This document shows positions 35,834-58,778 of a stretch of DNA of 64,000 nucleotides, piece after piece. Origin of the DNA: a virus. The notes under the pieces were generated by a model. The model ran no database searches. It saw only the letters and a program-made list of their open reading frames with translations, and was not told where the DNA came from. Location: positions 1-64,000 of the IMG/VR virus record IMGVR_UViG_3300010885_017276; one strand, given 5' to 3'. Numbering within the stretch: position 1 is the first letter of the stretch; every line of letters starts with the position of its first letter. The translations under genes were made by a program, and so were the position numbers.

Positions 35834-37375
35834 ATGTTACAAATAGGAAAAGAAGCTAAAGAATCTTTAGTAAGAGGTATAAACACTGTTGCAGATGCAG
35901 TCAAGACCACAATGGGTGCAGAAGGCAAGACAGTAATTATCAGAAACAAGATGGGGTTCAACCCACATGTTACGAAGGATGGAGTTACCGTTGCTGAAAG
36001 TATTGAATTAGAAGATGAGTACGAAGAGCTTGGAGCCAAGCTGATTAAGTCTGCAGCACGAAGAACTGTTGACATGGTTGGTGATGGAACTACAACATCT
36101 ACTGTTATCACACAAGAACTAGTAAACAAAGGCCTAGAAAAATTAGAAAGCGGTATGTCTCACGTTGAGCTACGTGAAGGAATGCAAATAGGCCTGCAAG
36201 ATGTTATCGTTGCACTTCATTCTTTGAAGAAGGAAGTTCACGACAAAGAAATAAAGCAAATTGCTACGATCTCTGCAAACAACGATGTTGTTCTTGGTGG
36301 TATCATTGCTGATATTTACAAAAAGATTGGCTCTGAGGGGACTATAGACGTTCAGGAGGGTGTAAGTAAGGATACAGATGTAGCTTATATCGAAGGCATG
36401 TCTTTAGACAGAGGATGGGCGTTACCCCACTTTGTTACAGACGAGCATACAATGACAGCTATGATGGAAGACGTATTAGTTATGATTTATGATGGTAAGA
36501 TTAATGCTATTACTGATGTAGCCAGTTCTGTTAGGAAAGCACAAGCAGAAGGTAAAGGGTTGTTAATTTTTGCTGAGGATATTGACGAAGGTGTTATGAC
36601 TATGCTTGTTAAGAGTAAGATGCAAGGTACCTTCAGAGTTGTAGCCTGTATGAATCCTGATTTTGGAGCTAACAGAACTAACATTTTGAATGACTTAGCT
36701 GTTTTTACCTCAGCCGAGGTGTTTACTCCTAAGTTTTCTACTGAGGTTAAGCTAGGTTTTGCTAAAAAGATCATTGCTGACAAATCAAGAACAGTTGTAA
36801 TTGTAGAGGATACCGATACAGCCAAATTAAAGGAAAGAATCGAGACTATTTCACAACAAATCCAGAATACAGACGATGTTATAGACCTAGATAAGCTTAA
36901 TAAACGAATGGCTAACCTAAAGAACTCAGTTGCGGTGGTCACTGTTGGAGGTATGAATGGATTAGAGGTCAAAGAACGTAAGGATCGGATTGATGATGCG
37001 GTAAGTGCAGTTAAATCTGCTTTAGAAGGTGGATTTGTAGCTGGTGGAGGTTCAACATTGTTGTTTATTTCTAAGTATAGAATGCGTAGAACCCTGAAAG
37101 GTGGTCAAAAAGACGGTTACAGCTTGATCAAGGAGGCTATCCAGAAGCCGTTTGAGCAAATCTTGTTGAATGCAGGTCTTGAAAAGGACAAGTACTCCCG
37201 TAAGGTTAGCAAATATGGCAAAGGTGTCAATGTTAAGACTCGTAAGGTCGAAAACTTGCTAGACAAAGGTGTTATTGACTCTGCTAAGGTGGTAGAGGTG
37301 TCTCTAGAGAACGCAAATTCTATTGCTTGCTTGGTTCTACAGACAGATTGTTTAATTTCAGGTAAAGGTTTATAG
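35834..37375 (+). CDS. groL: Phage GroEL-type chaperonin
   Basis: A 513-residue GroEL homologue, shorter than the usual ~545. The ATP site is present (VTKDGVTVAESIELED at about 46-61; VGDGTTTST at 82-90), as is the later GGFVAGGGSTLLF block (about 398-410). The Gly/Met repeat tail of host GroEL is missing; the protein ends ...LISGKGL. It should form rings that fold phage proteins (the capsid protein is the classical client). The next gene is a GroES-sized candidate partner. Confidence 0.93.
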   Translation: MLQIGKEAKESLVRGINTVADAVKTTMGAEGKTVIIRNKMGFNPHVTKDGVTVAESIELEDEYEELGAKLIKSAARRTVDMVGDGTTTSTVITQELVNKGLEKLESGMSHVELREGMQIGLQDVIVALHSLKKEVHDKEIKQIATISANNDVVLGGIIADIYKKIGSEGTIDVQEGVSKDTDVAYIEGMSLDRGWALPHFVTDEHTMTAMMEDVLVMIYDGKINAITDVASSVRKAQAEGKGLLIFAEDIDEGVMTMLVKSKMQGTFRVVACMNPDFGANRTNILNDLAVFTSAEVFTPKFSTEVKLGFAKKIIADKSRTVVIVEDTDTAKLKERIETISQQIQNTDDVIDLDKLNKRMANLKNSVAVVTVGGMNGLEVKERKDRIDDAVSAVKSALEGGFVAGGGSTLLFISKYRMRRTLKGGQKDGYSLIKEAIQKPFEQILLNAGLEKDKYSRKVSKYGKGVNVKTRKVENLLDKGVIDSAKVVEVSLENANSIACLVLQTDCLISGKGL

Positions 37376-39236: not shown

Positions 39237-39734
39237 ATGGACAAACTACCAAGACATACCTGTATCTTTAGCGATAGCATAGACGCAGAAACAGTACAAT
39301 CACTAGTAGATACACTATCAGTACACGACAAAATAGACCTCTTCTTTACAACCTCTGGGGGGGAGACCTTCGCTATGGAAGCCTTGATCCACTATTTAAA
39401 CGCCCGGAAAAAAGACATCGAGGTATACCTAACAGACGTAGTAGCATCCTGTGGTGCATTCATACTAGTAGACTTCCAAGGTAAAGTACACCTATCAGAA
39501 AGTCTAGAATGTATACTGTTCCATGTAGCAGACCGTATGTTATACACGCAAAGAAAAAACGACCTGGAAATAAAAACGCTGAAAGAACAAGTAAAAGAAT
39601 ACAACACACTATACGCAGATAAGTTCAAAAGTCTAGGATTTACAGTAAAAGAAATAATACAGTACAAACAAGGCAAAGATGTAATACTATACCGTAAGGA
39701 CTTCCACAGACTAATACTCCCCCAAGCAAAATGA
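39237..39734 (+). CDS. ClpP-like serine protease
   Basis: A 165-residue ClpP/crotonase-fold protein: LFFTTSGGETFAMEALIHYL (the oxyanion SGG at 40-42), nucleophile candidate S71 in DVVASCGAFIL, and H96 in CILFHVADR, placed as Ser and His of the ClpP triad; the Asp cannot be fixed by eye. Phage relatives often mature proheads; here the gene is far from the capsid block and in a chaperone/thioredoxin cluster, so a proteostasis role is equally possible. Overlaps the next ATG (ATGA). Confidence 0.8.
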   Translation: MDKLPRHTCIFSDSIDAETVQSLVDTLSVHDKIDLFFTTSGGETFAMEALIHYLNARKKDIEVYLTDVVASCGAFILVDFQGKVHLSESLECILFHVADRMLYTQRKNDLEIKTLKEQVKEYNTLYADKFKSLGFTVKEIIQYKQGKDVILYRKDFHRLILPQAK

Positions 39735-57779: not shown

Positions 57780-57955
57780 AAATTAGTAAAAATTTATCAG
57801 TACTCCCTAAGTCAAAGTGTTATATAGCATTGGAAGTCTAAGACAAGCCAAGACTGTCTGTAAGGGGAAATCAGTAGGTAATCTGATTAAAAAAAGCTTT
57901 TGTGCATTATGGTCGAGGAGGCACTCTTTAAACAGAATCCATACACAAAAGCAAT
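57780..57955 (+). ncRNA. Structured leader before tRNA-Arg
   Basis: Several hairpins: AATCAG/CTGATT around 57869-57888, and GCTTTTGTG (57896-57904) with CACAAAAGC (57944-57952) ending 4 nt before the tRNA. The latter could position tRNA 5' processing. No ORF. Confidence 0.5.
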
Positions 57956-57956
57956 T

Positions 57957-58030
57957 GGTTTGGTAGCTCAGTTGGATAGAGCAACAGACTTCTAATCTGT
58001 AGGTCGTAGGTTCGAATCCTACCCGAATCA
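57957..58030 (+). tRNA. tRNA-Arg(UCU)
   Basis: Full 74-nt cloverleaf: acceptor GGTTTGG/CCGAATC (two G-U), D-arm GCTC...GAGC, anticodon arm ACAGA-CTTCTAA-TCTGT (anticodon TCT, reads AGA), T-arm GTAGG-TTCGAAT-CCTAC. CCA not encoded. AGA is the main Arg codon of this AT-rich phage. Confidence 0.94.
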
Positions 58031-58039
58031 CAGATTAAA

Positions 58040-58430
58040 ATAACTAAGCTGTGTAAAGCGTCAGAACTTATAATCTGATAGAAGTTAAAGGCTAAACATT
58101 GAACCTTTGTAAACTAAGGAGTAGCAGACACTACATAAAAATTGGGAGAATGTCATCTTTACCAAAACCTATAATTTACATAAAGATATTTACAGAAATG
58201 TAAAATGTGTTGTTCCCTTGAGAAAGGAATATAGGAGTAACAAATATAAATGTTAACAACACAAATGAGTTCTCGGCAAGTAGTTAATGGTTGCCCTTGT
58301 GACAGGCTTAAATGTACTTACCATGGTGAATTAACTACGTGACCCTACTCTTACTAGACTCCATGTCTGTAATTGAGGGTGCTAATAACGCGTAATATAA
58401 TTTACAAAAACATACAAAATTGTAAACTAT
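58040..58430 (+). other. Gene-free stretch with long-range helices
   Basis: No ORF and no tRNA cloverleaf. Pairings: AAAGG/CCTTT near 58090-58110; GTGTTGTT (58207-58214) with AACAACAC (58255-58262); GTAGTTAAT (58280-58288) with ATTAACTAC (58330-58338). It lies between tRNA-Arg and tmRNA on one predicted transcript. It may be an unknown structured RNA. Confidence 0.45.
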
Positions 58431-58444
58431 ATAACACATTAAGG

Positions 58445-58764
58445 GGGGGTGACTGGTTTTGACAGGTTACCAATAATTAATACAATCAGCCAGAGAGATA
58501 ACTGTAAACTAAGGTGAATTTTTTAAATGGCAAAAACATTTCTCGTGTAGTATCTCAAGGAGACAACGCACAAATCGAAGCTAACATGAACAAAGTATTC
58601 TCTCTATTGGGAGAAGAAGTTGCTGTAGCAGCCTAAATTCAAAGGATTTCTCTATTAGATTAAATAGAGTGGTGGAATCGTCAAGTGAGATTGACCCCAA
58701 TTAAGCTGTATAAATTGTATTAATGAACGTAATTTGGACGGGGGTTCGACTCCCCCCACCTCCA
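58445..58764 (+). ncRNA. ssrA: tmRNA (ssrA) encoded by the phage
   Basis: The tRNA-like domain: GGGGGTG (58445-58451) pairs with CACCTCC (58757-58763), then discriminator A; T-arm GGGGG-TTCGACT-CCCCC (58740-58756); the 5' half reads GACTGGTTTTGACAGG as in bacterial tmRNAs. Helix H2 is seen as ATTAATACAAT (58476-58486) with ATTGTATTAAT (58714-58724) and GTTAC (58466-58470) with GTAAT (58729-58733). At 320 nt it is short, and the region after the tag stop is only ~130 nt, so pseudoknots are reduced. It should rescue stalled ribosomes and tag nascent peptides for proteolysis. Confidence 0.93.
58529..58636 (+). other. tmRNA tag reading frame, predicted 35 codons
   Basis: From GGC at 58529 (nt 85 of the RNA, the usual resume position; Gly is the usual first tag residue in Bacteroidota) one open frame runs to TAA 58634-58636. 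It starts GKNISRVVSQGDN and ends LLGEEVAVAA. Normal tags are 8-15 residues (Bacteroidota GENNYALAA-like). If the resume codon were instead GGA at 58610 the tag would be GEEVAVAA. Both end in Ala-Ala for Clp-type proteases; position favours the long one. Confidence 0.65.
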
Positions 58765-58778
58765 CAAATGTTTAACGC

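Follow-up and report, generated by a model that had tools for sequence, protein, structure and literature searches.

The 64,000-nucleotide stretch of viral DNA analyzed here (the window) carries a phage tmRNA gene whose tag reading frame spans 35 codons, and this gene is a member of a family of phage tmRNAs whose long tags share a conserved internal segment predicted to form a helix. From sequence comparison, we are highly confident of how the tmRNA is built and where it resumes translation, of how long and how conserved the tag is, of the selection acting on the helix, and of the restriction of the family to phages in our scans. Our explanation of the whole is that a functional tmRNA adds a tag in which a degron would be combined with a helix on which a flavobacterial host factor docks, and we consider this account somewhat better than an even prospect. 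Phage tmRNAs and long tags are already known, and a long phage tag family with a conserved helix is a new variant. No published description of this family was found in the open-access literature, subscription journals being outside the scope of the search.

A one-piece tmRNA gene in a crAss-like phage

The window phage probably infects marine-type bacteria and is crAss-like, with a portal protein nearest (39%) to those of Cellulophaga phages phi4:1 and phi17:2, in which matches to the tmRNA model are weak and partial. The 124-kb viral record carries a single tmRNA, located in the window (Table 1). The gene is intact and matches the full Rfam model RF00023 over positions 58445-58767 (E 2.6e-36). 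A permuted two-piece tmRNA was rejected because the corresponding model (RF04321) scores 18.8 bits against a cut-off of 47, and the gene order is that of a one-piece RNA. The roughly 600 bases before the gene (57807-58440) have no clear genes around a tRNA-Arg(TCT), and this region may hold further RNAs.

Table 1. Coordinates of the tmRNA gene, its parts and two other genes in the window
Feature	Position	Strand	Remarks
One-piece tmRNA gene	58445-58765	+	RF00023, 93.7 bits
Acceptor stem	58445-58451 with 58757-58763	+	G3·U70
5' strand of H2	58465-58490	+	segments 58465-58470, 58476-58486, 58487-58490
H2 pairing	58465-58470/58729-58734; 58476-58486/58714-58724; 58487-58490/58705-58708		
Conserved PK1-position element	58491-58518	+	3-4 bp stem (CAG/CUG) around AGAGAUAA, then UAAACUAAGGUGAA
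Resume codon GGC (Gly)	58529-58531	+	spacing to AAGGTGA; context as in Bacteroidota tmRNAs
Tag of 35 codons, GKNISRVVSQGDNAQIEANMNKVFSLLGEEVAVAA	58529-58633	+	homologous phage tags of 24-49 aa
Conserved tag core, QIEANMNKVFSLL	58571-58609	+	Q, A, N, M, V nearly invariant; predicted helix
Variable tag end GEEVAVAA	58610-58633	+	predicted ClpX-like C-terminal degron (x-A-A)
Tag stop codon TAA	58634-58636	+	
First post-tag hairpin CTCTATT-AGATTA-AATAGAG, then invariant UGGUGGA	58650-58676	+	stem covaries
Second short post-tag hairpin GTCAA-GTGAGA-TTGAC	58680-58695	+	at place of PK2-PK4; variable in relatives
T arm GGGGG-TTCGACT-CCCCC	58740-58756	+	both-side changes in 3/5 pairs, 100% paired
Discriminator A	58764	+	CAA here, CCA incompletely encoded
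GroEL-like chaperonin gene	35834-37375		PF00118, E 2.1e-53
165-aa protein, sub-threshold ClpP match	39237-39734		PF00574, 18.8 bits, cut-off 20.2

A preliminary description of this DNA, made from the sequence alone, had recognized a full tRNA-like domain, an 11-base-pair H2 helix and a shortened pseudoknot region. The tRNA-like domain and H2 both stand in the covariance-model search and in a structure alignment of 25 relatives whose post-tag region is equally short. The tRNA-like domain is indicated by the end-to-end model match, an intact T arm and a G3·U70 pair kept in 25 of 25 aligned relatives. Within H2, the 11 pairs of H2b show changes on both sides in seven, and 97.8% of cells are paired. 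Across all 48 proposed pairs, 96.7% of cells hold standard pairs and 18 pairs change on both sides, these counts being non-independent because the sequences are related. None of 500 shuffles attained these values, and pairings slid out of register drop to 39-54% paired.

The element at the PK1 position is invariant in the A1 alignment, including ACUAAGGUGA after its stem. In divergent relatives this first stem covaries (CCAG/CTGG, GCAG/CTGC, TCAG/CTGA, CGG/CCG, GAG/CTC, CGTG/CACG), and a Watson-Crick second stem, looked for by eye at this position, was not found. The post-tag region consists of two hairpins only (58650-58669 and 58680-58695), found where PK2-PK4 would be. The first is composed of GAUUUCUCU, AUUAGAUUAAAU and AGAGUGGUGGA, with the stem variants CTCTATT, CTCTGTT, CTTCATT and CTTTATT. 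The second pairs in only 74.8% of cells in A1 because its lengths differ.

The first of these hairpins, with its flanks (GATTTCTYYATTAGATTAAATRRAGTGGTGGA, 58647-58676), has no Rfam match, and the 3' end of the tmRNA, UCCACCA, is the complement of its invariant UGGUGGA. The same hairpin with its covarying stem also lies inside the tmRNAs of gut crAss-like phages (L005:1500-1530), and in Lactococcus phages AM1, WRP3 and their relatives it stands on its own, outside any annotated gene, immediately upstream of the tmRNA. Further loci are L006:1510-1545, L007, L149, L151, L153, L155 and L160.

Two other architectures were encountered. The crAss-like tmRNA genes of cr128_1 (L005:1202-2520) and of contig L150 (L150:6531-7094) are interrupted at the T loop by a group I intron, which in cr128_1 holds an annotated endonuclease gene; the tmRNA itself is unannotated in NC_055885. 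A Bacteroidota genome carries a second, divergent tmRNA copy (L228:101-512) together with a normal one, both with the tag GENNYALAA, and the degraded-looking T arm of this copy is possibly the attachment scar of an element.

Resume codon and tag reading frame

The reading of a single open frame from GGC at 58529 to the TAA codon is borne out by the relatives. The conserved PK1-position element, expected to end 8-15 nucleotides before 58529, ends 11-12 nucleotides upstream of the resume codon, and this spacing from AAGGTGA to a GGM or GAC codon recurs in 134 of 140 loci among the matches listed. Such fixed spacing is seen for GGM/GAC alone. Resume contexts in Bacteroidota chromosomal tmRNAs are TTTAAACGG followed by CGAG, ATAAATGG followed by CGAA, and AAATGAC followed by AAC, and that of the window is TTTAAATGG followed by CAAA. 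Among the matches listed, the tag frame is open in all 134 relatives and each other frame in one of 134, which is far beyond chance, and the stop codon is TAA in 111 cases and TAG in 22. The distance from the resume codon to the first glutamine of the core is 2, 3, 5, 6, 7, 9, 10, 11 or 14 codons across relatives, in frame throughout.

These observations bear directly on the possibility, raised at the outset, that translation resumes at 58610 to yield a short GEEVAVAA tag. The PK1 spacing and the bacterial context point to 58529, no frameshift occurs in relatives upstream of 58610 despite nine segment lengths, and the sequence before 58610 is conserved (QxxANMxxV). On this comparative evidence, a tag starting at 58610 is effectively refuted. 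A broader version of the same idea places the resume codon at 58610 or at one of the inner positions given by the program ARAGORN, and treats the stretch from PK1 to the true start as a spacer. We consider it highly improbable. For many relatives ARAGORN does place the start further in (for example DNAQIEANM... or ANMNKV...), but its positions are scattered over gene positions 85-207 and lack a fixed spacing. The constant 11-12 nucleotides for GGM/GAC and the in-frame segments of nine lengths also argue against a downstream resume codon, and the shortest tags (GKQIDANM..., GKNQAKANM..., DKEQISANM...) leave no space for a spacer.

The methionine at 58586 is invariant and its codon is always ATG, so it could be proposed as the start of a separate micro-peptide (MNKVFSLLGEEVAVAA) made from an RNA that is read as an ordinary message. 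This has a very slim chance of being correct, since the Gln, Ala and Asn residues upstream of the methionine are conserved as well as those downstream, and all tags are open back to the resume codon.

ARAGORN, the program generally used for annotation, missed the tmRNA gene when run on the window and assigned the resume codon to scattered downstream positions in most relatives. Its tag peptides are wrong or truncated for L003, L004, L058, L075, L093, L098 and others, and other members were missed. Phage annotations based on this program are unreliable for the long-tag family. Under standard annotation such tmRNA genes are missed or given a wrong start, making the class easy to overlook, and the scattered partial tags would explain why the family went unnoticed.

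With resumption at 58529, the tag is over twice the normal length, as had been noted, having 35 residues versus 8-10 in the Bacteroidota tmRNAs examined (for example GENNYALAA, GEYNYALAA and DNTSYALAA). The chromosomal RNAs share with the phage RNA the one-piece form, G3·U70, H2, the resume context AAAYGGC or AAATGAC, and a tag that starts with G or D and ends with AA. However, their tags lack the helix core found in the phage tags of 24-49 residues and their pseudoknot region is longer, whereas the phage RNAs carry a different element at the PK1 position and, here, two hairpins in place of PK2-PK4.

The conserved tag core and its distribution

The phage tags have in common the internal motif QxxANMxxVx[SN][LI][LI]. 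The Q, A, N, M and V residues of this core are constant while their codons vary, and across 68 distinct DNA sequences of the core the opportunity-corrected ratio of single nonsynonymous to synonymous changes (omega) comes to about 0.09, a measure that counts related pairs and differs from a formal codon-model test. Thus, the predicted helix is under strong amino-acid selection. The N-terminal segment of the tag is much looser (ratio 0.7-0.9), as expected for a translated but little-constrained spacer. AlphaFold2, given an alignment of 54 tags, predicts a single helix at tag residues 10-34, with a pLDDT near 88 over residues 11-20, and the conserved I/V-M-V-L positions follow a 4-3-4 spacing. 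Taken singly, tags have no more than a borderline helical moment (in shuffles, about 0.05 for three of four), and the helix prediction therefore depends on the AlphaFold model together with the way the conserved residues are spaced. We found no tag relatives among PDB sequences. When the six frames of the phage DNA examined were all searched with a tag profile, no significant relatives emerged outside tmRNA, and derivation of the tag from a phage protein was rejected on this basis.

Downstream of the core, relatives carry 5-24 further codons. Nearly all of their tags end in a hydrophobic residue followed by Ala-Ala, like the VAVAA of the window tag. The tag of Caulobacter ends in EEFAVAA, close to the GEEVAVAA end seen here. 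This part of the tag resembles known ClpX signals and is a predicted degron. The tag of Calle_1/phi38:1 ends in VAVGV and a few others in MVA or LVA; these are atypical ClpX signals and speak against a ClpXP-type degron. In several loci (L063, L117, L158, L098, L121, L156) the same ends, such as GGTEVKSNDIVEFELAA and GDDTQEEASYEVELAVAA, stand behind different N-terminal parts and appear exchangeable, as if swapped by recombination.

Blastn against phage records revealed related tmRNAs in Flavobacterium psychrophilum phages of the FpV4 type and in Cellulophaga phages phi14:2, phi38:1 and Calle, whose tags from the matching codon include GNTNNSVVSLEDNAQVEANMNMAFSLIREDVAVAA (35 residues), GNDTDNTQLKANMTVVHNILNGSDALIGSSVQKLAMVA (38) and GNNTNAVNAQIEANMEAVNAILNLEVAVGV (30). 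All of these isolates have flavobacterial hosts (Flavobacterium for FpV4, Cellulophaga for Calle_1/phi38:1 and for the crAss-like phi14:2), and they belong to three unrelated groups, namely Fipvunavirus, Steigviridae and Pervagoviridae. Two scans of IMG/VR, one with the back-translated pattern NAQ[IV]EANM and an independent one with the DNA of the PK1-position element, raise the family to at least about 140 phage loci with at least 90 distinct tags of 24-49 residues, the second scan contributing the matches listed. The PK1 pattern is blind to the tag and thus yields an unbiased frequency for the core. Among the matches listed, this pattern alone reached 64 new loci, one of them cut by a contig end, and the core is present in 61 of the 63 complete loci (60 called by script and L141 by hand). 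The two exceptions, L104 and L140, share the start GNIDNDAQEVVDINYTFST.

In 84,980 bacterial genomes the PK1-position pattern had no match, and the tag pattern had 25 matches, none inside a tmRNA; the core is likewise missing from the tags of the 54 bacterial tmRNA loci examined. A bacterial origin of the tag family was rejected because these two genome-wide pattern scans gave no chromosomal member. The coding matches in rows L161-L185 were dismissed as tag relatives, being chance products of the genome scan's own pattern. Many phages keep tRNA or tmRNA fragments as integration scars, and in principle the phage gene could be a decaying, non-functional copy of a host tmRNA acquired by recombination. 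The probability of this is almost negligible given the compensatory changes in the helices, the invariant G3·U70, the purifying selection on the tag, and the lack of the core in bacterial tags.

Other phage tmRNAs are known from mycobacteriophages Bxz1 and Wildcat, Bacillus phage G and Streptomyces phages (PMC4131195), and a 2022 survey lists them in 402 phages (PMC9004378). As in the present family, ssrA is phage-encoded and no phage partner is known, but the tags of those examined are ordinary (for example DNSNVAFALAA and ANSKFAFALAA) and a helix core has not been reported. The Calle tmRNA was noted earlier, its tag not given (PMC8776804). Among other lineages, the messenger region of a diatom plastid reaches up to 126 nucleotides in a survey alignment (PMC1168896). 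The gut crAss-like tmRNAs share the post-tag hairpin with GUGGUGGA, whereas they differ in their T-loop intron and in their short tags without the ANM core (GNTYRAAA, 8 residues, in cr128_1; GKVVNFTSRMTRLAA, 15 residues, in L150).

Proposed function of the long tag

Extended tags of about 26-27 residues occur in Mycoplasma. Long mycoplasma tags accompany a switch to the protease Lon (Gur and Sauer 2008; Ge and Karzai 2009; cited in PMC7246954 and PMC3985003). The likeness lies in a longer tag with several recognition elements, and that system indicates that extending a tag can change the protease. However, the mycoplasma tag ends in NYAFA and is cellular, from bacteria without ClpXP. The phage tags are longer, keep x-A-A and bear no visible sequence relation to it in their core, and the (N)YAFA ending is absent among them.

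Genes for SmpB, Lon and a ClpX-type AAA_2 protein were each found in 0 of 29 phage records, indicating that these partners must come from the host. A ClpP-like match, itself sub-threshold, is confined to the window phage and has no counterpart in the other 28. On the strength of these 29 records, a phage-encoded partner of the tag was rejected. The core is common to unrelated flavobacterial phages and absent from gut crAss-like tmRNAs, which suggests that the partner is not a phage protein but a host one characteristic of Flavobacteriia. The short tag of cr128_1 likewise implies that the helix tracks flavobacterial hosts and not crAss-like phages as such.

In the explanation we favor, the phage tmRNA would be functional and would borrow the alanyl-tRNA synthetase, EF-Tu and SmpB of the host. 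On stalled ribosomes in infected Flavobacteriia-type cells, alanine and the 35-residue tag would be added, replacing the host tag of 8-10 residues. The C-terminal x-A-A might act as a ClpXP-type degron, and the internal helix QxxANMxxVxxLL might dock the tag onto a host factor, in all likelihood part of, or an adaptor to, an AAA+ protease. Tagged fragments would thereby be handled faster or differently than host-tagged ones. That the RNA is expressed, works with host SmpB and leads to degradation, and that the helix docks, is what we infer.

Of the options first offered for the long tag, an extra binding function is the best match. The poorest is an insert preceding a short GEEVAVAA tag, since the tag end is variable and the internal part constant. 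The helix is conserved in well over 100 related viruses, so the long tag probably has a role that the short host tag lacks. This could also be a non-degradative fate, with the Ala-Ala end being secondary: the helix might mediate self-association, bind a phage or host protein such as a chaperonin, or block a defence or lysis function. The greater constancy of the core relative to the tag end, the VAVGV ending in Calle_1, and a 4-3-4 spacing of I-M-V-L that suits helix pairing are compatible with such roles, as is the GroEL-like chaperonin encoded by 7 of the 29 phages with this tmRNA, including the window phage, phi14:2 and Calle_1. We nevertheless regard this alternative as unlikely. That almost every tag has kept a terminal Ala-Ala behind a hydrophobic residue would be unexpected without a protease, and GroEL is absent from 22 of the 29 phages, for which reason it was rejected as a constant partner.

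Extending the docking explanation to the whole family, these RNAs could represent a virus-specific tmRNA class with a modular tag, in which the N-terminal spacer would vary, the conserved helix would dock and so redirect the products of stalled ribosomes, and the C-terminal degron would be exchangeable. This generalization is tentative, and we place it slightly short of even. tmRNA tags are usually seen as short, interchangeable degrons, and here a second, internal element is under strong selection, kept by more than 100 phage records in tags that exceed the usual length two- to fivefold. For research on Bacteroidota, the phage tags may also be a source of new, modular degradation tags. If the proposal is true, phages of Flavobacteriia would have their own quality-control channel, a route unused by the host tag that rides on host SmpB. 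This would offer a testable answer to why phages carry tmRNA, which is that they alter the fate of proteins from stalled ribosomes.
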